A DNA stretch of 38,481 bases from Gammaproteobacteria bacterium (GCA_022712755.1 JAFLJY010000006.1:1-38481); one strand, 5' to 3'; shown: positions 12,722-36,886, numbered from the stretch's first letter. Numbers and translations are program-made. Notes: generated by a model not told the origin, from the sequence alone.

Positions 12722-15700
12722 CTAGTTCAACCAACTCTGTATCTGCTCGGCCGTACCCTGATCAAACTTCATGCGGAAACGAATATAAGGGCCGTTTGCG
12801 GTATAACCGGCTGCAGTGAAGTCACTGTCTTCAAAACCATCAAAGTTATAACCGATGCTTAGCCAGATGTTACGCGTCATGTTCCAGCCTGCTGACACAC
12901 CCGTTGAATATTTATATACGTCCGAGTTTGCTGAATAATGGGTATGCGCATGCACGCCAACATCAAAGATATCGCTGATATCATGGCGGTATTCACTGCC
13001 TAATAAAGCGGTAACACCTTTGAATTCAGCAGTATCAAAATTATCAATAACATATTTCAAACCAAAGTTAAACGCCAGTTGATTTCTGTTATCAATGAGG
13101 AAGTTAGCTGTCAGGTTTTCAATTAGTTTACGTTGACGAGTTTTTAACCCGAGAAGATCGGTTGTTGAATCAAATTTGAAATCAAGACGATTTAATACTA
13201 TCCAGCGAGACTGTAATGGTCGGTAGGCAACAGAAAAACGAATATCGCCATCCAGTATTTCACTGTTGTCTGTGCGCTGCGTTTTAAATAACTTTGTTGT
13301 TGCCGAATAAGCAACACCACCTTTTAAATTTCTTTCCCAGTTAATAATAGCGCCAACTTTATCTTCCAGGTCAGCAGTGCGGTATTCAATACGATTATTG
13401 ACTGTATAACTTCGTGCATTATAAGTTGTACCTACAGAAAGTGCAGTAAAGTCATTATTGGCTGTGCCCTGTGCGATTGGCACATTGGGATTAAAGGGAG
13501 TGCCGCCAGGTGTACGCATTGTTTGCGAACGATCAAAAGCAATATCACCAGACCAGCGTTTATTAATCGGGAAAGATTGTGTCAGACCTAAAGTAGCAAA
13601 GGAACGAATGCCGTTTTCATTGACTTCCTGATTAACTGCGGTATTAAGTTGTGCATTTGTCCATGGCGTTGAGCGCACACCGGCGCGTGTCATTTGGGTA
13701 TCCTGATCGCTGCCCATGGTCCATTCGTTTTCTGCGAATAAATTGATCTTCGGCGTAACAAAATAATCGGCGCCAATAATATAACGTGATGGGTAATCAA
13801 CATTTTCATTTTTTGAATCAATGGCTATTTCTGCCGAACCGCGTAATTTAACGGTATCCTGTAATAGACTTTTACTTGCGCCTAATAACAATAAATTTGA
13901 ATCATTGCTTAAACCCAACGCATCGGTATCACGGGCAATTCGTAATCCTGCATTTAAAGTGTAATCGCGTTTGTTATAAATAACATTGGCTTCGGCAACA
14001 TTTCTATCTGCGCCGCTGCTTAAAACGTCTTCGTGGTATATCACACCGTCGATTGCTGTTTGCTGTGTTAAACGATAATTTGCTTCAGCACCGTATTTTC
14101 GCGTACCTGACTGGCTGATAGATTGTTGACCTAAACCAAAATCAGTATCCTGCTGTTTTGCGTAGGCACGCAGTTTAAGATTGTCACCACCATGTACGAT
14201 TTCTGCAGACCAGGCAGAGCCGGTTAAATCTTGACCTGCTGAAGTCACATCGGTTGTTGCCGCTTCTAACCTGACTTCGGTTTTATTATCAATTTCAATA
14301 CGCGCATCAACACCAATTAAATCACCTTCGTTGAGGTAACTTGCATCATGCACCAGGGTAGCACCAAGTTCAACTTTTCCCTCTTTTAATTTAATGGCCA
14401 TGCGACCACCTGCAGTAATATCACCTTTAACAGGGCTTTCGACTTCATAATCGGCAACGATAAATATCGGATTAAAGTTTTCATCACGACTGGCAATCGG
14501 ACGGCGGAAGAAAATAGTGCCATCGGTATAGTCAATGCTGTAATCAAGATAACGTCGCATGGTTTCTGTGTTAATGATAATTTCACTGCGGAAGCGGTCG
14601 CGTGTTTCAATAACAATGTTGTCACTGTTGATGACGATGTTGTTACCCGTTAAACGATACAGTCCGGAAATACCCTCGCCCTGAATTTCATCCTTAATAA
14701 AGTTGTTTATATTTTCTGCTGCAAAAGCGGTATAAGAAATTTTTCCATCATCATATTCAGATTTAACGCCTGTCATACGACGATTAAATTTAGATAACTC
14801 AGTAACGGTTAAGCCAGTATCCATATCACCAAACAAAGCATAAAACTGACTGCGCTCTATTTTTATATAAAGTTTTTCAGCACTGGAAGCATCATGGCGT
14901 TGGCGGGAGTTATCACCATAAATGGTGTAATAAGTATTGGGATCAATCAACTGATTAACACGGTTATCGCCAGCCAGGCTTCGTTTTGATGTATCGTAAG
15001 CTGTAGTTAATAACCAGTCACCCTTCACTCTTCCTTTCGCATAGAAAGCAATTTTTCCATCGCTATAAAATTCATCATTTATATCAGCCGCACTCAGTGC
15101 TTCTTTATTGCCAGACACCGTGTTATAACCGACCGTACCCTCGGCCAAACCAACCATAATCCAGTCACGCACTTCCGGTTGAATCCAGGTTTGTAAGCGT
15201 GATTTTTTACGGCCGGAAAATGGCAGATCAATTTCAAGTTTGCCAGTGATGGTGGTCGGTTCTAATACAATATAAGCGATACCATTTTGACCAACAATGT
15301 ATTCAGGCTCTTCACGGTTTAAACCTGACAAACGATTCACCTGAAAAGCTTCAACCGTTTTTTGTGAAAGATAAGGCTCAGACAGAGTGAATTTACCGCG
15401 TGAACCTGGACGCGCAAAATACCCGTTTTTATCATAAACACGAATAGCAACAACAGGAACGTTACGACCATCGGCAATTAGTCGTGAGTATTCTTCAGCC
15501 AGCTCAGCTCTTACTGGAATACCGGCATAAATTACATTACGGCTTAGCTTTTTCAGCACTTTGCCAGTTTTATCTTTTACAATAAATTCAAATTTATTAT
15601 TACCATTATTCAAATGCACACCCTGCCAGTAACTGCGTGCAACGGTATTGGCTTTATTTTTTATCATGCCAAAATAGAATAATGGATTTAATCGCTCACC

Positions 15701-18538
15701 ATTAAACAACATTTCAAACTTGTCACCGGGTTTGTGTTTAATGGCTATATTGACCGAAGGTGAAAAGGGGGTGTAATTAACATCTGGCATCAACCATTCA
15801 TAACCTGGTGTTGCCTCTTTTATCCAGAACTCATCAAAGGTGCTGATGTCCTGCTGCTCGGTTACAGGTGGTGCTTCTATTAATTTTTCAAGCTTAAATT
15901 CAGGCTGACCTTGTAAGACAATTTCACTGACTTCACTTGTTGATGTAACCAGTTCAACATTACCCGGTGCAACGATTTCACTGGTTGTTACTACCAGTTC
16001 GGCACGGCGGTTTAAAGAACGGCCCTGTACAGTATCATTAACTGCCACCGGATTTGTAATCCCTGCCCCTTTGATAACAATATTTTTTTCTGCAACATTT
16101 AATTCGTTGATAAGGAAATCAGCAACAACTTTAGCTCTGGCTTTAGACAAGGCGGTATTACCCTGGTACAACCAGATGCTTCTTCGTTTTACTGCGGCAG
16201 CATCTGAATAACCTGTTACTTCGTTATGTGTAATATCAACTTCGCCCAGGTTATTAATGGCTTCACGGATACCGTTCTTACTTATAGTGGAAAGTTGTGT
16301 TCCTAATGGCTGAAAATAGGCCTGATAAATAGCTGACTTGCCTTCTTCCCGTACGCGACTGACCTGCAGTTTATTTTTAATGGGCGTTGAACGACTATTT
16401 TTCTTCAGCTCCGTATTTAAAATAATAAAGGCAGTAGTAACAAGCTCACCGTCAGCCTTCTCTTTAATACGTCCACGGAACTTAAGCTGTTTTTTCCAGT
16501 TACTGCCTAAATCACCAAAACGGTAAACAATGACATTTTCATTCACATAAGGATCGTCAATGGCTTCAGCATCAAGCACACTGCTACCCAAATCATACTC
16601 AATACCATCAGGCAGATTAATAATCAAACGATAATTGTTTACAGGAATTTCACCATTAGACATTTCAATCGTATATTTAATATTCTCTATGTTTAATTCA
16701 CTTTTAATAAGTAATGTTGCACTATCACTAATAAGTTCTTTCTCGCGCACATAAAAATCGGTGCGCCATAATGTGCCACCCTGAACATCAACAAATTGAG
16801 AATATGGCGTACCGGCAAAACGGGTGTTTTTTACACAGTCAATAATTTCAAGATTATCCGGAATGCTTGCCGTATCCACCTGCACAACATGTGTTCCGGG
16901 TTTTATGCCTTCAAAATGGAAGCGACCATTTTCATCGGTAGCCGCATAAGTACCGTCTTGCATAAACACACGAACTGATGGCAGACCGGGATTCATTCGT
17001 GCGCCATCCTCATCACACTCACCAATAATGACTCGACCGGCAATAAAACTTCTGCTGGCAAATAAATCTTCAGTAACGGTTATGCCGGCTACTGCGGTAT
17101 TGGATTGTGTACCACGATCATCGATGGCAATAACGCTGTTTACCGCTTTACCCAATTGTGTGCCTACAGTTAATTCAGTGACATACTTGAGCTGTAACGA
17201 ACTACCCGGCAAAAGCATCGCGACTGAAAATTTAAGCGTACGTCCATCAGTAGAAATTTGTGGTGCGGAAGCTGGCGCACCATCATAACGAACAGAGGCA
17301 GACTGATAACGCAAACCAATGGGCAAGGTATCAGTGATGACAACATTACTTGCCGTGGTATTGGTATCAATATTACTCAGGGTTAATGAGTACTGCACGA
17401 AGTCACCAACCGCTGCGGTGTCTTTTGACGCGACTTTATCAATAACCAAATAAGATGTTAAAGCATCCAGAGGTATATCAACATGTAATGGCGGGCCAAC
17501 AACCAGTGTAAACACCGCTGCAAATGAAGCATTCACATCAATAGCATAAGGTGCACCCGGCAATGTTTGCAGGTCAGCAACATTAGCAGCAGAAGGGCCG
17601 TCAAAACCTGTAGGTGGAGTTACCACCATTTGATAATCACCCGGAGCCAAACGCGGAAAACGATATCCACCTGCCGGGAAGTTATAGATTGTTCCGCCAC
17701 TGTCTGTGGCACTGCCACCGCTGACTATGGTTGCCGGATAGACACTAACACCATCATCACCAAACACGGATGCCGGGTTACCTGTTGAATCGAGAATGCT
17801 AACAACCGCACCGTCTAACAATGTGCCATCAACACTGCTGAAGAGCACACCAAATGGATCCACCAGTGAACCACCGGTGCTGGTATCTGCCGGGTCATAC
17901 TGATCGGTATATTGTACGGTGACATTGCTTTCTTCGCCCAGGGTCAGGATACCATCATAATGTGATGCCGGTGTTGATGATGACTGCACATAACCAATGA
18001 ATACACCGGTATCAATACCGGTTTCGGTTAACATTATTTCTTCCAGATCACCGGTAGAACTGGTAACAACCACCTTAACCGTTTCCAGTATAGCGGGATT
18101 AAGGTTTTGATCCTGATCATCTACCTGAACAAATACAGGTTCACCCGTAGTGTACAAACTAACCGGATTTAATGGCTGGGGATCGCTTGCCACTAACGAA
18201 ATAGCCCCACCGATAAACGGTACGGCAGGGTCAGCTGAAACCACAAAACCACTGCCTGGTGATCCACTGGTGGCATGTTGTGTTACTACTGTCGGAGTAA
18301 ATGCACTGCTAGCGGTAGCATCAAACTGGAAAAGACTGATTGATGAAGGTGTTTGTATTATTGTTGAAACAATAGTTTGGGTATTACTGTTTACAGAGCT
18401 GGCAGTGCCGGAAAAAACAAATGCTGCTGACGCAGTATTATCAATGGCTGTGCCGGGGGGGGTTATTGCCTGCGCATTCATTGTTATTGATAACAAACCT
18501 ACAAATAAAATAAAACGGGTTACCAGATGTAAAAACAT
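12722..18538 (-). CDS. Very large surface/outer-membrane protein: DUF11-type repeat(s), carboxypeptidase-regulatory/SdrD-like domain, OmpA-like domain, predicted C-terminal beta-barrel
   Basis: Track ORF 12722..18751 (2009 aa); MFLHLVTRFILFVGLLSITMNAQA (M72, position 18538) is a plausible signal peptide start. DUF11-like YLVIDKVASKDTAAVGDFVQYSLTLSNIDTNTTASNVVITDTLPIGLRY; SdrD-like VFMQDGTYAATDENGRFHFEGIKPGTHVVQVD; OmpA-like VTGYSDAAAVKRRSIWLYQGNTALSKARAKVVADFLINELNV...RSLNRRAELVV; alternating beta-strand pattern in the C-terminal ~700 aa, ending YIRFRMKF plus a 13-aa tail. Confidence 0.85.
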   Translation of the reverse strand: MFLHLVTRFILFVGLLSITMNAQAITPPGTAIDNTASAAFVFSGTASSVNSNTQTIVSTIIQTPSSISLFQFDATASSAFTPTVVTQHATSGSPGSGFVVSADPAVPFIGGAISLVASDPQPLNPVSLYTTGEPVFVQVDDQDQNLNPAILETVKVVVTSSTGDLEEIMLTETGIDTGVFIGYVQSSSTPASHYDGILTLGEESNVTVQYTDQYDPADTSTGGSLVDPFGVLFSSVDGTLLDGAVVSILDSTGNPASVFGDDGVSVYPATIVSGGSATDSGGTIYNFPAGGYRFPRLAPGDYQMVVTPPTGFDGPSAANVADLQTLPGAPYAIDVNASFAAVFTLVVGPPLHVDIPLDALTSYLVIDKVASKDTAAVGDFVQYSLTLSNIDTNTTASNVVITDTLPIGLRYQSASVRYDGAPASAPQISTDGRTLKFSVAMLLPGSSLQLKYVTELTVGTQLGKAVNSVIAIDDRGTQSNTAVAGITVTEDLFASRSFIAGRVIIGECDEDGARMNPGLPSVRVFMQDGTYAATDENGRFHFEGIKPGTHVVQVDTASIPDNLEIIDCVKNTRFAGTPYSQFVDVQGGTLWRTDFYVREKELISDSATLLIKSELNIENIKYTIEMSNGEIPVNNYRLIINLPDGIEYDLGSSVLDAEAIDDPYVNENVIVYRFGDLGSNWKKQLKFRGRIKEKADGELVTTAFIILNTELKKNSRSTPIKNKLQVSRVREEGKSAIYQAYFQPLGTQLSTISKNGIREAINNLGEVDITHNEVTGYSDAAAVKRRSIWLYQGNTALSKARAKVVADFLINELNVAEKNIVIKGAGITNPVAVNDTVQGRSLNRRAELVVTTSEIVAPGNVELVTSTSEVSEIVLQGQPEFKLEKLIEAPPVTEQQDISTFDEFWIKEATPGYEWLMPDVNYTPFSPSVNIAIKHKPGDKFEMLFNGERLNPLFYFGMIKNKANTVARSYWQGVHLNNGNNKFEFIVKDKTGKVLKKLSRNVIYAGIPVRAELAEEYSRLIADGRNVPVVAIRVYDKNGYFARPGSRGKFTLSEPYLSQKTVEAFQVNRLSGLNREEPEYIVGQNGIAYIVLEPTTITGKLEIDLPFSGRKKSRLQTWIQPEVRDWIMVGLAEGTVGYNTVSGNKEALSAADINDEFYSDGKIAFYAKGRVKGDWLLTTAYDTSKRSLAGDNRVNQLIDPNTYYTIYGDNSRQRHDASSAEKLYIKIERSQFYALFGDMDTGLTVTELSKFNRRMTGVKSEYDDGKISYTAFAAENINNFIKDEIQGEGISGLYRLTGNNIVINSDNIVIETRDRFRSEIIINTETMRRYLDYSIDYTDGTIFFRRPIASRDENFNPIFIVADYEVESPVKGDITAGGRMAIKLKEGKVELGATLVHDASYLNEGDLIGVDARIEIDNKTEVRLEAATTDVTSAGQDLTGSAWSAEIVHGGDNLKLRAYAKQQDTDFGLGQQSISQSGTRKYGAEANYRLTQQTAIDGVIYHEDVLSSGADRNVAEANVIYNKRDYTLNAGLRIARDTDALGLSNDSNLLLLGASKSLLQDTVKLRGSAEIAIDSKNENVDYPSRYIIGADYFVTPKINLFAENEWTMGSDQDTQMTRAGVRSTPWTNAQLNTAVNQEVNENGIRSFATLGLTQSFPINKRWSGDIAFDRSQTMRTPGGTPFNPNVPIAQGTANNDFTALSVGTTYNARSYTVNNRIEYRTADLEDKVGAIINWERNLKGGVAYSATTKLFKTQRTDNSEILDGDIRFSVAYRPLQSRWIVLNRLDFKFDSTTDLLGLKTRQRKLIENLTANFLIDNRNQLAFNFGLKYVIDNFDTAEFKGVTALLGSEYRHDISDIFDVGVHAHTHYSANSDVYKYSTGVSAGWNMTRNIWLSIGYNFDGFEDSDFTAAGYTANGPYIRFRMKFDQGTAEQIQSWLN

Positions 18539-18607
18539 CTTCCAGAAACGGCTCGCGTTTTTATAACAGCTAACACGGGTATCTTGTTGAACAGTTTCTG
18601 GAAGATG
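18536..18607 (-). promoter_or_regulatory. 14-bp inverted repeat overlapping the proposed start codon of the 2009-aa gene
   Basis: CATCTTCCAGAAAC (18536-18549) and GTTTCTGGAAGATG (18594-18607) are exact reverse complements. Confidence 0.6.
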
Positions 18608-18691
18608 AATTGCGTGACTTCTCACACAGTTCATCTCTTTTTGTACACATTTTTGACAAAAGCCAGAAACAAAAAACGCACACACCGCAGC

Positions 18692-18721
18692 ACCTGCTTT
18701 GGTTATAAAACCAAAGCAGGT
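18692..18721 (-). promoter_or_regulatory. 13-bp perfect stem, 4-nt loop hairpin between the 434-aa and 2009-aa genes
   Basis: ACCTGCTTTGGTT-ATAA-AACCAAAGCAGGT. Confidence 0.7.
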
Positions 18722-18772
18722 TTGTACAGTATGTAGCATTAATAGCAACATGACTCTGCTAATCTTCCGTGA

Positions 18773-20077
18773 TTAAGGTAGTACTACATCAAACTCAATA
18801 GTAAGAGTTTGTGTTGCTTGTAATACATTTGTAATACCAGCAACTGCAGATAAATCAACACTTAGCCTATTAGCTGTACCACCGAAAGCACTATCACAAC
18901 CATCTACCGGTGTAGTATCACCCGCATCTGCTTGACAGAAAACTACCGCACCCAAACCATCTGTAATACGTACATTATTTGCACCGGATACTGGTGCATT
19001 TGCTGCGTTACCATCACCAAACTGCGCATCTAATGATAATGGCAAGTCATCAATAATTGATGTTAATGTAGCATCTGCCGCACCCGCAGCATTGGTTACA
19101 GTTACCGTATAACGAATAACAGAGCCACCTGGAATCGATTTTGGACTAACATTCAGATTCACAAAATCCCATAATGCAGACGAAACTTTGGCAACTGTTA
19201 ATGCGGCGGACTGAATAGTGTAAGAACTATCATCTGAATGCTGTGCATTTTTCACTATATCTGCAACACCTGTGCCGGCCTGTGTGCCATCAGCATCATT
19301 AAACACAATCTGCTCAGTAGCCGGATCATCAGCAATAGTTGCAGCAACACCTGCTGTTACATCTGCTGTGCCATTGGTAAAACCAGTACCACCTGGACTA
19401 GCATTGCCATTATCATCAGCAACAACCGCATCACCTGCGATACCTGTGCTAGCTGGAATTGCCGCCTGCGCTACCAAAGTCATTACCGCAACGTTGGCAT
19501 TAACTAAAGGCGCACCACCAGTATCGACTAATGGGATTGTAGAGACAACATAAACATCCACTGAATCAGCACCCGCTAACGTAGCAACAAAAGCGGCAGT
19601 ATCTTCAGCTGGCTGAAAACCTCCCGTTACACCACTCTCAACAAAAGTCTGCACAGCTGTTGCATCAAATTCATCATTTGTGCCTCCCCATGGATCAGCA
19701 GTACCATCAGCATTGTTCAAACCCTTCAACAGAAAACCCTGACTGCCATTACCAGTATTAGTCAAGGTATATTGAACAGACTGTAATGTTCCACCCGGTA
19801 CAGCCGTACCCGTTGCGCCACCTCGCACGACATTAAAGTTAATCAAACGGTCTTCCATAAAGGTCGTTGCCGTACCATTACCCGCACCTGGTATTGAGTT
19901 ACCAGCACCTGTACCTGACTCAATCCCAGTTTGCGCTGTACCACCAACAGAGTACCCCAATGTAGCGGTATTTGAGATGACATCACCTGCCGCAGCAAAT
20001 GCTCCTGACGCACCAAACAGACTAAAGCCGCCTGTTAATGCCAGGCCTAATAGCCTGTTTCGTTTACTTGTTTTCAT
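18773..20077 (-). CDS. Secreted protein of unknown function (paralogue A), DUF11-like C-terminal region
   Basis: 434 aa, signal peptide LALTGGFSLFGASGAFA; AAGDVISNTATLGYSVGG, FMEDRLINFNVV, TFVESGVTGGFQPAEDTAAFV, NAQHSDDSSYTI, VIRYTVTVTNAAGAADATLTSIIDDLP. SD-like AGAGGT upstream of ATG. Confidence 0.85.
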   Translation of the reverse strand: MKTSKRNRLLGLALTGGFSLFGASGAFAAAGDVISNTATLGYSVGGTAQTGIESGTGAGNSIPGAGNGTATTFMEDRLINFNVVRGGATGTAVPGGTLQSVQYTLTNTGNGSQGFLLKGLNNADGTADPWGGTNDEFDATAVQTFVESGVTGGFQPAEDTAAFVATLAGADSVDVYVVSTIPLVDTGGAPLVNANVAVMTLVAQAAIPASTGIAGDAVVADDNGNASPGGTGFTNGTADVTAGVAATIADDPATEQIVFNDADGTQAGTGVADIVKNAQHSDDSSYTIQSAALTVAKVSSALWDFVNLNVSPKSIPGGSVIRYTVTVTNAAGAADATLTSIIDDLPLSLDAQFGDGNAANAPVSGANNVRITDGLGAVVFCQADAGDTTPVDGCDSAFGGTANRLSVDLSAVAGITNVLQATQTLTIEFDVVLP

Positions 20078-20370
20078 TATGTTTACCTCTATTAAATTAA
20101 ATCTCTATAAGATTTTTAATGTTTACTTTTTCCCTTTTGTTTTTTCTAAAGACTCTTGTTTTTTTCAAGACTTCTTTAGCATTTTTTTCTAACCAGCCAT
20201 GCCTTCGGCGGGTCTGTTGTTTTCGGTGGATCTAGATCACTTAACCATTGTGGCGGTCCAGTTCCACCTGACGGGCCGGTAACATTTTGCAACCCGTCTT
20301 GCGTATGGAAGATAATCGGCCCGTCCCTGCTGTGCACTTGAGCAAAGCCTGACATTTTTTCCTTGTTTTT

Positions 20371-20455
20371 CTCGTTCCCACGCTCCCGCGTGGGAATGCA
20401 TACGGAATCTGAGTTAGCATCGGTACGCATTCCCACGCGGGAGCGTGGGAACGAG
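20371..20455. repeat. REP/BIME-like palindrome pair (CTCGTTCCCACGCTCCCGCGTGGGAATGC family)
   Basis: CTCGTTCCCACGCTCCCGCGTGGGAATGCATAC ... GTACGCATTCCCACGCGGGAGCGTGGGAACGAG. Confidence 0.92.
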
Positions 20456-20578
20456 AAAACAACTGGCTCAATCAGAATAAGCCATGATTTACTGTCAAAT
20501 TGTCGATTTAAACTTTGCATAAATATCTTTATGTTTTATGTTATTAACTTTTTACTTAAAACTTTAAACATATAACTT

Positions 20579-21085
20579 TTATTTAATCGTTGTCTTATAA
20601 GTAACCTTGCCTTTCTCACCAGGCTTCAAAACATTGTTATAAACCCAACGTATCGCCGTATAGTCTTCCGGTTTTGCCTGCCGACTGTTACCGGTTTTAT
20701 CTTTTACCGTTAATGTTTTGGCTGCGGCAAAGTTTTTACCATCTACTGAAAAGGTAATTGTGGATGCATCACCTGTCGCAGAATCACCACGATATACCGA
20801 GTTATTTGCAATTGGGTTATTGATAACAATGTTTGAAATTTCCTGCTTACTGATATTTTCAAAAATAATTTCATACAAAATCACATCCTTTGGTAACACC
20901 AGACCCGGCTCAACATAATCGTATTGCACTGAATCGTCTGCCGCTTTGGAAATAACCTGTTTGAACGCATTATTACTAAAACGAATTGCGCCATCTTCAG
21001 CATGAGCATTTGTTGAAACTTGCAATGAAAAAGCAAAAATCAAAATCACGGTTGCTAGTAGTTGTCTTTGTGTATTTATGTTCAT
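20579..21085 (-). CDS. Small secreted DUF11-like protein
   Basis: 168 aa; signal peptide ending in NAHA; VILYEIIFENISKQEISNIVINNPIANNSVYRGDSATGDASTITFSVDGKNF...YTAIRWVYNNVLKPGEKGKVTYKTTIK; SD-like AGGAAAG upstream. Confidence 0.85.
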   Translation of the reverse strand: MNINTQRQLLATVILIFAFSLQVSTNAHAEDGAIRFSNNAFKQVISKAADDSVQYDYVEPGLVLPKDVILYEIIFENISKQEISNIVINNPIANNSVYRGDSATGDASTITFSVDGKNFAAAKTLTVKDKTGNSRQAKPEDYTAIRWVYNNVLKPGEKGKVTYKTTIK

Positions 21086-21093
21086 TTCTTTCC

Positions 21094-22299
21094 TCAGTTT
21101 ATTGTTACTTCAAAAGTAATTGTATTTGTTGAACCGGGCACGACTGCCACTGAGCCACCCTGACTTAAATCAATCTCAATGCTCAACACGGGTTTAGTAA
21201 AAATATCAGCATCAGATAGCCGGGCATGGGAATAATCTGTGGGCATATCATTTGCGTCCGTTTGTGCAACACCATTCAATCGAATCGACGCATCGCTATA
21301 AGTTGTGTTGTCTGGAATAACATCAGAAATAATCAAATTATTAACTGCTATATTTCCAACCACACTGACATCTAACTGATAACGTAAAGTGGCACCTGCG
21401 TGTGGGTCTGACCCACCCAGGGTATCTATTACTGTTACTGTTTTGTTAATAGTGACTGGAGACATGGCCTGATATGCACCTGCATCAGAATGTTGACCAT
21501 TACCGGCAACATCCCTTTTGAAACCATTATCAAAATCAGTGCTTACATCTTCTGTGTTTGCACCAGCAGGATCATTAAAAACACTGTCCATAGCTGATGG
21601 CGCATCTGAATTAAAAACGGGAACACCTGCTGGAACAGTTGTTGAGCCATTACTAAAAGTACCAGCAGGACTTATGCGTCCATTATCATCTGTATTGATA
21701 AAAGCGCCTTCAACACCACTAACACCCCCTTCTGCAACTTGTGCAATTAACGCAATAGCGGCAACGTCATTTTCAACCAGTGCTGGCATATTTGTTAATA
21801 CATAAACAACCTGTTGACTGTTTGGGCTTAATTCATCAACAAATACAGTGGTATCTTCTGTTGTCTGATATCCGGGTGTCACACCGCTTTCAACAAAGGT
21901 TCGTATGGTTCCGGGCAAAACATCAAAACTATCAGCCGGTAATGTATAAGGGTTTGGTGAGGTATCAACAGCGGTAATTAAAAAATCATGCGTATCATTA
22001 CCGGTATTTGTAATAGCAAATTGCATGACTGCATTGCTCATAGTGCTAACAACAGGAAGAGCTGAGCCACCATCTAATTCTGTTACCACAAAGTTTATTT
22101 TTCGGTCTTCAGTAAATTCGGCAGATGCGTTACTTGTTGCAGTGACTCCACCAACTAAATAATTAATCGTTGCGGTAGCGTTAATTGAATCGCCTGCAGC
22201 TGAAAACGCATTTGTTGAAACGAGCAATGAACTCAAAAATACAATGCTAGCCACCGGCGTCTGCGCTACAAAATAACCCATGGCGTTTTTTACAACCAT
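21094..22299 (-). CDS. Secreted protein of unknown function (paralogue B of the 434-aa protein)
   Basis: Track ORF to 22404 begins with TTG; likely start M36 (22299), MVVKNAMGYFVAQTPVASIVFLSSLLVSTNAFS signal. Shares AAGDSINATATINYLVGG, FTEDRKINFVV, TFVESGVTPGYQTTEDTTVFV, NGQHSDAGAY with the 434-aa protein. Confidence 0.82.
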   Translation of the reverse strand: MVVKNAMGYFVAQTPVASIVFLSSLLVSTNAFSAAGDSINATATINYLVGGVTATSNASAEFTEDRKINFVVTELDGGSALPVVSTMSNAVMQFAITNTGNDTHDFLITAVDTSPNPYTLPADSFDVLPGTIRTFVESGVTPGYQTTEDTTVFVDELSPNSQQVVYVLTNMPALVENDVAAIALIAQVAEGGVSGVEGAFINTDDNGRISPAGTFSNGSTTVPAGVPVFNSDAPSAMDSVFNDPAGANTEDVSTDFDNGFKRDVAGNGQHSDAGAYQAMSPVTINKTVTVIDTLGGSDPHAGATLRYQLDVSVVGNIAVNNLIISDVIPDNTTYSDASIRLNGVAQTDANDMPTDYSHARLSDADIFTKPVLSIEIDLSQGGSVAVVPGSTNTITFEVTIN

Positions 22300-23042
22300 C
22301 TGTTGCTTAGCGACTATGATCCTTATTGATACAGAAAAGAAAATATTTAACATCATAAAGATATTAAAAATTTGTTTTGTGAGGGGATGACTAAAATGCT
22401 TCAACGTTTTTTGCCCGATTTTTACTGATAAAAAAATTCATAATTAAACGCCCTGATTCGGGGCACTTCAAAGTATCAACTAAGAATTTTTTATCATTTA
22501 ATGTTTCTGTTGCTGTGACGCTTTTGTCACCTGGCAAACTGAAAACAACAGCACTTATCGGGGGGAGGATATAGTGGCTATTTTTATTATTTTTATTTTT
22601 GTTTTTATTATTAATTTGTAAACTTTTGTAATACGATATAATTTAGACGCTAAGTCAGTGAATATCAAAGAAAAATCAATAAAATAATGATTATTTTTTA
22701 TGTCAAAAGCTGACAAATTTGTTACTTCATCGACATTTAAAAAAAACAGTGCAATTTACTGTTATCCAGGAAGCAAAACCATTCTCTTTTCTCTATAATC
22801 ATCATAAAATCAAACTAAGTGGCTGAAAAAGCCCATTAGAACAATGGTTTTCAAACTTTTTTTTATTCTGCCTATCACTTTCTAAACAAGTTTATTTTGT
22901 AAAACACCTGTCTTTTCAGATCAAATTTTGACCAGATCTGCACTATTTCAGAAAAAAATTTCAAAAATATTTTTTCAAGGCTTAAGGTTTTCCATTTAAT
23001 GCCGATACTTGAATTTAAGATATTGGGGAAACTCGATATTAA

Positions 23043-23111
23043 GGGCACCTCTATTAATTGCTTGCGTGCTTCAGGTCACGCAGAGAGCGCAAGCAATTAA
23101 TAGAGGTGCCC
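23043..23111. mobile_element. MITE-like hairpin element, 69 bp, flanked by TTAA
   Basis: GGGCACCTCTATTAATTGCTTGCG ... CGCAAGCAATTAATAGAGGTGCCC, perfect arms, TTAA on both sides (23039-23042, 23112-23115). Confidence 0.75.
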
Positions 23112-23250
23112 TTAACTTGTAGAATCTCAACAAACTCCATCAACTGAACAGTCCGTAGGCTGGGACAATAAATTTTACAAAAAAAATGACCCTGTTAAAG
23201 GGTCATTGGCAGCTTTCCGTAAGCATTTTTATTATTATAGTTATATCATT

Positions 23251-35861: not shown

Positions 35862-35907
35862 CCAACATAAGGGGTCAGCCAACATAAGGGGTCCAACATA
35901 AGGGGTC
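35862..35907. repeat. Three near-contiguous copies of CCAACATAAGGGGTC at the RAYT 3' boundary
   Basis: Copies at 35862-35876, 35879-35893, 35893-35907; the last contains the RAYT stop codon. Confidence 0.85.
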
Positions 35908-36886
35908 AGGATGCTTGCTTCATAATACTCTTTATCGTCTTATTAATTATAGACGAAAAGTATTTATCTTCTCTTTTTTTCTTTCTGACCTGATGAGTAA
36001 TAAAACTAACAGAGCCAGCATGGCTAAGTTTAAATAATTCCGCTATATCCTTGAGTTTTTCACCGGCTAATTCCTGACATAAATACATCGCGATTTTACG
36101 TGCATCATTTCCCTTTTGCGGCCCTTTAACGACTGCTGTCAGTTGGTCAGGTGTTGTGTTCCAAAGGCTGGCGACACCTTTAACAATAGTTTGCTTCGAA
36201 ATACCATGTAAAACAACCTGGCCTTTCTCTTCCGCTTCCAGCTCCGGAAGCAATTCGTCATATACCCATGCCTTAAAATTATTATCCCCAATAATTGCCA
36301 CCATATTGGCACGTTGATAATATCGCGCTGTTTCCTCATCCACACCATTTAACACATAGCTAGCGTAGCCTTTATATCGTTGCCTGCTCCCAAGCATCTG
36401 ATAAGTCATTTCCCGAAAAAGCCAGTTTGGCGCCTTCGCTTTGGCGATATAAGCTGGATAACTAGACCACTGATATTTTTGTAAATCACGTACTATCGGC
36501 TTCTTCATATCAACAGGGTTACGATGTATATATCGTGACAGCTGTAACAAATAAGCGTCTTTATCCACTAAAATTGCTTTGTACCTGCCCCGAAATAGTG
36601 GGCCATCCGTTTTTTTAAGCCGATTGTACCGCTGAGTATAAACACCATTAATATGACGCATGATTCGCCCCAGGTTGGCATGAGGAGTTTCCAGCAATAA
36701 ATGGTAATGATTCCCCATCAGACAGTATGCGTGTATCACACAGTGAAAACGCTGATGCACCTCTGCCAGGGTATCCAGAAATGCTTGATAATACCGCTCA
36801 TCACGAAATATCATCTGTCGTCCCCGACCTCGGTTCATCACATGGTAAAAAGCGCTTTCATATTCAATTCGTTGTGGTCTAGGCAT
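35906..36886 (-). CDS. REP-associated tyrosine transposase (RAYT, Y1_Tnp) with DnaA domain IV-like C-terminus
   Basis: 326 aa; YHVMNRGRGRQMIF, CLMGNHYHLLLETP (HUH), RDGPLFRGRYKAILVDKDAYLLQLSRYIHRNPV region; C-terminal DARKIAMYLCQELAGEKLKDIAELFKLSHAGSVSFITHQVRKK. Confidence 0.9.
   Translation of the reverse strand: MPRPQRIEYESAFYHVMNRGRGRQMIFRDERYYQAFLDTLAEVHQRFHCVIHAYCLMGNHYHLLLETPHANLGRIMRHINGVYTQRYNRLKKTDGPLFRGRYKAILVDKDAYLLQLSRYIHRNPVDMKKPIVRDLQKYQWSSYPAYIAKAKAPNWLFREMTYQMLGSRQRYKGYASYVLNGVDEETARYYQRANMVAIIGDNNFKAWVYDELLPELEAEEKGQVVLHGISKQTIVKGVASLWNTTPDQLTAVVKGPQKGNDARKIAMYLCQELAGEKLKDIAELFKLSHAGSVSFITHQVRKKKREDKYFSSIINKTIKSIMKQAS

Follow-up and report, generated by a model that had tools for sequence, protein, structure and literature searches.

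Split DUF11 proteins of a conserved envelope operon and their proposed donor-strand-like assembly

Main finding

The operon encodes secreted proteins that stop within a DUF11 domain. The N-terminal segment of the mature proteins A, B and G appears to be the final part of a DUF11 domain, that is, the part missing from the C-termini of A, B and s168. Exact truncation of the domain and matching N-terminal tails thus give complementary halves, and we infer that these pair between subunits. On balance, the product of the operon is probably a noncovalent chain or fibre of secreted DUF11 beads, which assembles through the splitting of a domain; this reading is held with somewhat more than even confidence.

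Locus and operon

The window, i.e., the whole stretch of 38,481 nucleotides analysed, is contig C10 in the draft assembly of a gammaproteobacterial genome. The operon lies on the minus strand in the order A (436 aa), s168, a small ORF, B (434 aa) and G (2009 aa), flanked by amiB and thpR/mutL (Table 1). Sec-type signal peptides are seen by inspection on A, s168, B and G. The ORF of A opens with TTG; position 22299, given as its start in the sequence-only reading, is an internal MVVKNAM start, and translation probably begins there or close by. The small ORF shows a third-codon-position excess of 938, versus 317 and 423, and is interrupted in the window by a REP-type palindrome. Rfam "microRNA" matches at 20363-20462 correspond to this palindrome and were rejected. 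Genome G012, a relative of the same genus (contig shared with L056), is recorded as Thiotrichaceae.

Table 1. Coordinates of the operon features in the window, with proposed roles and their basis.
Feature	Position	Strand	Description and basis
A436	21094..22404	-	Secreted; donor tail, B-type shaft domain and A-type unfinished C-terminal DUF11 (acceptor); orthologues at the same place in more than 20 genomes
Proposed donor segment of A (AAGDSINATATINYLVGGVTATSNASAEFTEDRKINFVV), start of the mature protein	22084..22200	-	HMM match to B and G N-termini; relatives match independent DUF11 tails
Proposed acceptor, C-terminal DUF11 of A, ending short of the last domain segment	21097..21459	-	hhalign to the complete DUF11 of G, columns 17-96 of 130, probability 97.6%
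s168, proposed cap or chaperone-like protein	20579..21085	-	Secreted single unfinished DUF11 without donor tail; orthologue alignment; 51/51 loci
Small conserved ORF between s168 and B	20176..20520	-	RDGP and GTGPP motifs; found in 14 family loci
B434	18773..20077	-	Secreted; donor tail, shaft domain(s) and unfinished C-terminal DUF11; ORF and orthologues
Proposed donor segment of B (AAGDVISNTATLGYSVGG ... TTFMEDRLINFNVV)	19826..19993	-	HMM; mature N-terminus predicted ordered, pLDDT 92
Proposed acceptor, C-terminal DUF11 of B	18776..19204	-	hhalign to DUF11 of G, columns 17-96 of 130, probability 96.8%
G2009, giant envelope protein	12722..18751	-	Pfam and NCBIfam, synteny
Proposed donor segment of G (ITPPGTAIDNTASAAFVFSGTASSVNSNTQTIVSTII)	18356..18466	-	G/A/B N-terminal HMM; motif in 52/62 G homologues
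Complete DUF11 of G including its own tail (GKAVNSVIAIDDRGTQSNTAVAGITV)	17072..17449	-	PF01345, 42.9 bits, profile 2-110 of 114
OmpA peptidoglycan-binding domain of G	16007..16318	-	PF00691, 36.7 bits
C-terminal beta-rich region of G, ending GPYIRFRMKF	12725..15304	-	Sequence and conservation

The gene order A - s168 - B - G is shared by numerous contigs from the window's family and by distant Gammaproteobacteria. With profile A1, made from the N-terminal region of G, 80 genome loci were recovered, distributed among Gammaproteobacteria, Zetaproteobacteria, Alphaproteobacteria (Sphingopyxis), Desulfobacterota (Geomonas, Desulfosarcina widdelii), Krumholzibacteriota and others. Protein s168 is encoded upstream of G in all 51 loci with enough sequence; in 34 of these a recognisable B lies directly upstream of G, and A is found in 32. 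Operons of Steroidobacteraceae apparently contain only s168, B and G. The plasmid search gave one weak match, in Novosphingobium. No description of an A - s168 - B - G operon was found in the open-access library searched.

Protein G consists of an N-terminal donor tail, a conserved region, a complete DUF11, SdrD_B/CarboxypepD_reg, OmpA and a beta-rich, barrel-like C-terminal region. The OmpA domain is missing from the Sphingopyxis homologues and triplicated in locus L067. Searches with the C-terminal 860 residues gave no Pfam family and no PDB relative; by sequence, the region is probably an outer-membrane barrel. Against solved structures, the N-terminal region of G matched only designed Pizza propellers through a repeat-like stretch and, weakly, RbmA over the DUF11.

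N-terminal segment common to A, B and G

A and B share 38% identity (107/285, E 3e-37 by BLASTP) over the N-terminal two thirds only, and the similarity breaks off before the C-terminal domain. All motifs listed for the two proteins in the sequence-only reading lie inside this alignment. That reading also likened the mature N-terminus of G to those of A and B. Single-sequence BLASTP gave no significant match at the N-terminus of G (E 1.8 for B); family profiles match reciprocally and in register. Among 1,757 ORFs of 21 loci, the 13 best non-G matches to a 40-aa HMM built from 17 G N-termini were all N-termini of A or B, and G N-termini made up five of the six best non-A/B matches to the reverse HMM, built from A and B and run on the same 1,757 ORFs. 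Neither s168 nor other Ser/Thr-rich ORFs appeared in the top ranks of these searches. The resemblance is therefore specific and exceeds that of generic Ser/Thr/Ala sequence.

The segment directly follows the signal peptide and reads I-x-N-x-A-x-hydrophobic-x-Y/F, alternating as in a beta strand. Of 62 G homologues, 52 carry it, and most of the other ten have a near-variant instead, e.g., VIRNVA. The motif is absent from the divergent G homologues of L099, L102 and L112. In divergent loci the B position is taken by proteins with other middles and the N-terminal motif retained.

Division of the DUF11 domain

The usual final segment of DUF11 resembles Gt-I-x-N-t-A-t-v ... N-t-a-x-v-x-V. The domain is complete with this C-terminal segment in G only (residues 435-560); those at the C-termini of A, B, s168 and of X (a protein family described below) end earlier. 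Membership in DUF11 is given by 42.9 bits to PF01345 for G (cut-off 24.6), 25.7 bits to TIGR01451 for A (cut-off 24) and up to 27.5 bits for relatives of B; B and s168 of the window score below the cut-off on their own, yet align by profile. In profile alignments the C-terminal domains of A, B and s168 matched the DUF11 of G with 97-98% probability. For A and B the alignment runs to column 96 of 130 and there reaches the C-terminus of the protein itself; the end of s168 maps to this position too, in a short piece aligned separately. The C-termini of s168 extend 1-4 residues past the last strand.

The same truncation is seen with an independent DUF11 model of 122 positions, derived from proteins that do not belong to the system. 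Here, A, B and s168 have C-terminal domains that finish at positions 85-89 with 0-3 residues left; this range covers the listed domains that align through their end (85-87 for A relatives alone, 85-89 for B relatives). Internal DUF11 domains of G and X reach 101-122. Among 18 control DUF11 ORFs (16 distinct proteins) from outside the system, none is cut in this way, their last DUF11 reaching 111-122; this control is partly circular, most of the ORFs having also been used to build the model.

The missing part was recovered at the other end of the proteins. A tail model of 31 positions was run on 1,378 sequences, and the 25 best matches were internal DUF11 tails (the seven best, plus one more) or mature N-termini of proteins at the A or B position. 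The A/B matches are individually weak (E 0.2 to about 2), include many close relatives and over-represent some lineages, so that the ranking is the evidence. When 45-residue N-termini were aligned by profile with the DUF11 tail of G itself, the segments were short and the alignment was not significant. Chimeras of a C-terminal domain and an N-terminal segment gave small gains in Pfam score and some losses. By tally, A and B carry both donor and acceptor, G a donor only (one complete internal DUF11 and no unfinished one), and s168 and X an acceptor only.

The two ends may also be unrelated. The N-terminal segment would then supply the first strands of the protein's own first Ig-like domain, the C-terminal domain would be a DUF11 variant that folds without its tail, and the proteins would be ordinary bead-like adhesins. 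The slight or negative response of the chimeras is in line with this, as are the shortness and variability of DUF11 tails and the order of both segments in AlphaFold models. It leaves aside the exact truncation in four gene families against 0/18 control ORFs, the presence of the missing tail at the start of three proteins of the system (A, B and G) and the complementary tally of donors and acceptors; it is considered unlikely.

The proposal of the sequence-only reading that the segment may be a shared sorting or polymerisation motif is partly supported, the split DUF11 halves speaking specifically for a donor-strand-like role. Sorting is less probable as a function, since tandem DUF11 proteins contain this segment internally, as a regular part of their structure.

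Composition of A

With type models built only from other lineages, the first 230 residues of A of the window's family score 114-150 bits with B models and 33-68 bits with A models. The last 130 residues score 94-115 bits with A models and 36-54 bits with B models. The tree agrees with a hybrid origin. By these scores, A combines a donor/shaft module of B type with a conserved acceptor of A type. A recent duplication of the whole A/B pair was rejected: the C-terminal domain types are distinct across lineages, and only the front of A is B-like. The term paralogous pair, applied earlier to A and B, calls for amendment, A being a hybrid of a B-type front and its own A-type C-terminal domain. Replacement of the front with retention of the acceptor would fit acceptors that have specific partners.

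Protein X

X is a family of large proteins that end in the same unfinished DUF11 and lack an N-terminal donor segment. Only this C-terminal domain is common to them. The heads comprise choice-of-anchor L with GEVED, Reelin-subrepeat, P-domain, SpaA_3, DUF7933 repeats, and SdrD_B with a beta-helix. The gene is upstream of A in some lineages, divergent in Steroidobacteraceae and L091, and unlinked in the window's family; in genome G000, X genes are located on contigs C49 (1032 aa) and C308 (about 500 aa). In the window's family (54 genomes), X is present in 17 of 22 operon-positive versus 1 of 32 operon-negative genomes, operon-positive being defined by a match to G or B and the only X match of G049, which adjoins G, being left out. 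At a completeness of at least 90%, X is found in 8/8 genomes with and 0/15 without the operon (Fisher 2e-6, a test that ignores shared ancestry). Judged from sequence, the layout of X is that of tip adhesins.

Structure predictions

The AlphaFold models are of two read-through fusions, s168-B of L091 and B of the window with the N-terminus of G. The s168-B fusion has pLDDT 90 and pTM 0.78, with a largely disordered linker (residues 150-177); by simple arithmetic of our own, a pTM of about 0.59 is expected with s168 free and 0.77 with s168 docked. The model supports docking of s168 against B; the strand partners are not visible in these scores. In the second fusion, B is ordered right from its first residues (pLDDT 92), the G segment is unplaced (pLDDT 34-43), and the pTM of 0.64 fits a rigid B with all else free. 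The predicted B-G joint is thus without structural support, and B may complete itself. As a check on hetero-oligomers, which the sequence-only reading had proposed, the fusions speak for a predicted s168-B contact but do not place the N-terminus of G on B. Foldseek matches are general Ig-bead proteins (integrins, AgI/II, PrgB, RrgB and donor-strand pilin fusions, 3f85 and 5y9h) and say little on assembly.

Self-closure would account for the rigid B with its ordered N-terminus and for the pTM of that fusion. Each N-terminal segment would complete the C-terminal domain of its own chain, giving a circularly permuted closed monomer, no polymer, and free secreted or envelope proteins. Precedent exists (PMC9715654): self-complementation precedes polymerisation in TasA monomers, and is also seen in some AlphaFold models of the archaeal thread subunit. 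TasA nevertheless combines self-complementation with polymerisation, the s168-B model docks two proteins, and self-closure is impossible for three of the five components, G having a donor without an unfinished domain and s168 and X an unfinished domain without a donor. Self-closure as the whole explanation is improbable.

Proposed assembly

In the fibre reading, the N-terminal segment of one subunit would complete the C-terminal DUF11 of the next in a donor-strand-like manner. Polymerisation of A and B is suggested by their sequences. The chain would run X (or s168) - A/B - B - G, with X as a tip with variable head and A/B as shaft. G would anchor the chain by means of its C-terminal envelope region, supplemented in many lineages by an OmpA domain on peptidoglycan. 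Being an acceptor without donor, s168 may cap the chain or shield donor strands before assembly. For passage of subunits across the outer membrane, the barrel-like region of G would be the only candidate within the operon.

A short fixed complex, e.g., one s168, one A and one B on one G, could use the same complementation to decorate or gate the G barrel, with no long fibre. Each gene is present once per operon, dedicated polymerisation machinery is absent, and the apparent gene content in Steroidobacteraceae would suit such a complex. A and B each have a donor and an acceptor, however, and so permit chains; the short complex is regarded as very unlikely.

Comparison with known systems

Chaperone-usher pili (type 1, P, Saf, archaic CUP) resemble the proposed fibre in a predicted Ig-like unfinished subunit completed by the N-terminal extension of its neighbour, and in a head-variable tip adhesin with an acceptor-only pilin domain; the Foldseek matches include Saf and CfaB fused pilins. 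They differ in that the subunits here are DUF11 proteins, the domain left unfinished lies at the C-terminus, the donor is followed by a different domain, and the anchor G itself carries a donor segment. Pfam and NCBIfam scans detected no PapD-like chaperone and no FimD-type usher among the operon proteins, including G.

DUF11 beads-on-a-string filaments are known from grappling hooks, namely GhlA of Litorilinea aerophila and GhpA of Aureispira (PMC13319060). In contrast to the present proteins, in which the chain is split among genes in the middle of a DUF11, these are single giant polypeptides of dozens of covalently linked domains, and are bundled. No operon protein of the window is such a giant tandem-DUF11 chain, each having at most 1-2 DUF11-type domains.

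Archaeal threads, TasA/TapA fibres and archaeal bundling pili are formed by head-to-tail donor-strand complementation without an usher (PMC9715654). They likewise have cap or starter proteins that lack one half, e.g., the putative cap Saci_0405 (PMC9715654), which has a donor without acceptor and is the reverse of s168. Their subunit families are unrelated, and a G-type outer membrane anchor is absent. The Pfam scan gave no match to the TasA/CalY family, and a PDB search with the B profile gave weak, unrelated chains only.

Sortase-assembled isopeptide pili (RrgB, SpaA) have DUF11-type, SpaA and SdrD_B modules in common with the system, and weak TIGR04226 matches were obtained. In contrast to sortase substrates, A, B, s168 and X end directly after a beta strand, without LPXTG or a sorting C-terminus. 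No sortase was recognised on reading the window ORFs, and no LPXTG-type sorting signal was present at the C-termini inspected.

The system would work like donor-strand fibres and would, from its sequences, stand outside those families. More tentatively, and with rather less than even confidence, it may represent an undescribed class of Gram-negative surface fibres, in which gene-split DUF11 beads are strand-joined without chaperone or usher, the tip adhesins X are encoded elsewhere, the N-terminus of G is the terminal donor strand, and G is at once exporter, terminator and anchor.

Significance

If correct, the fibre reading would add a widespread mode of fibre assembly, found in sulfur- and oil-associated Gammaproteobacteria, Sphingopyxis, Geomonas, Desulfosarcina and Krumholzibacteriota, whose proteins are now labelled by family models only as DUF11 repeat proteins. 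It would account for the mid-domain C-termini of A, B, s168 and X, assign a role to the giant G, which is without a solved relative, and offer a simple test of the purpose of the common DUF11 domain. The unlinked, head-variable X would be a new class of tip adhesins, recognisable by the last 120 residues.

Small ORF between s168 and B434

Conserved small ORF, carried by 14 loci of the family to which the genome belongs. Its product has the motifs RDGP...RDGP and TGPPGGTGPP...TTGPPMEW. The codon-position pattern of the ORF (317/423/938) marks it as protein-coding. The reading frame stays open across an internal REP/BIME-type palindrome, of which about 31 half-sites (CGTTCCCACGCTCCCGCGTGGGAA) are present in the genome.

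Features of the contig and of the genome
Feature	Position	Strand	Remark
Small conserved ORF	20176-20520	minus	between s168 and B434
REP/BIME-type palindrome (CGTTCCCACGCTCCCGCGTGGGAA pair)	20367-20459		within the small ORF
Perfect 28-bp inverted repeat	23039-23115		downstream of amiB
RAYT-like transposase ORF	35906-36886		assigned by reading
X-type protein	G000:C49 (L202:2330-5425)		unlinked to operon
X-type protein	G000:C308 (L203:3166-4659)		unlinked to operon

The inverted repeat near amiB is probably a MITE-like element, since its core has 39 genomic matches (up to 2 mismatches allowed), frequently as facing pairs (contigs C154, C254, C234).

X-type proteins

Both X-type proteins (proposed tip adhesins) of the genome end in an unfinished DUF11 domain; the heads of the pair are choice-of-anchor L + GEVED and Reelin-subrepeat. 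The protein on C308 is adjoined by a ClpB-like gene (by reading).

B434-G2009 junction and variation of G2009

At 18752-18775, the TAA stop of B434 and the ATG of the giant envelope protein G2009 are separated by 21 nt and lie in the same frame. This in-frame spacing, with zero further stops in between, is shared with five same-genus relatives, probably by chance and common descent, and was exploited for structure prediction of a fusion of B434 with the N-terminus of G2009. One same-genus genome (G006) has a G2009 homologue together with a B434 homologue twice, on C142 (L064) and C22 (L055); the second copy of the giant protein, 55% identical to that of the window, suggests a second version of the system. 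Three OmpA (peptidoglycan-binding) domains are encoded in the homologue at L067:9761-17041. Peptidoglycan anchoring is not universal among G2009 homologues, because Sphingopyxis homologues have 0 OmpA domains.
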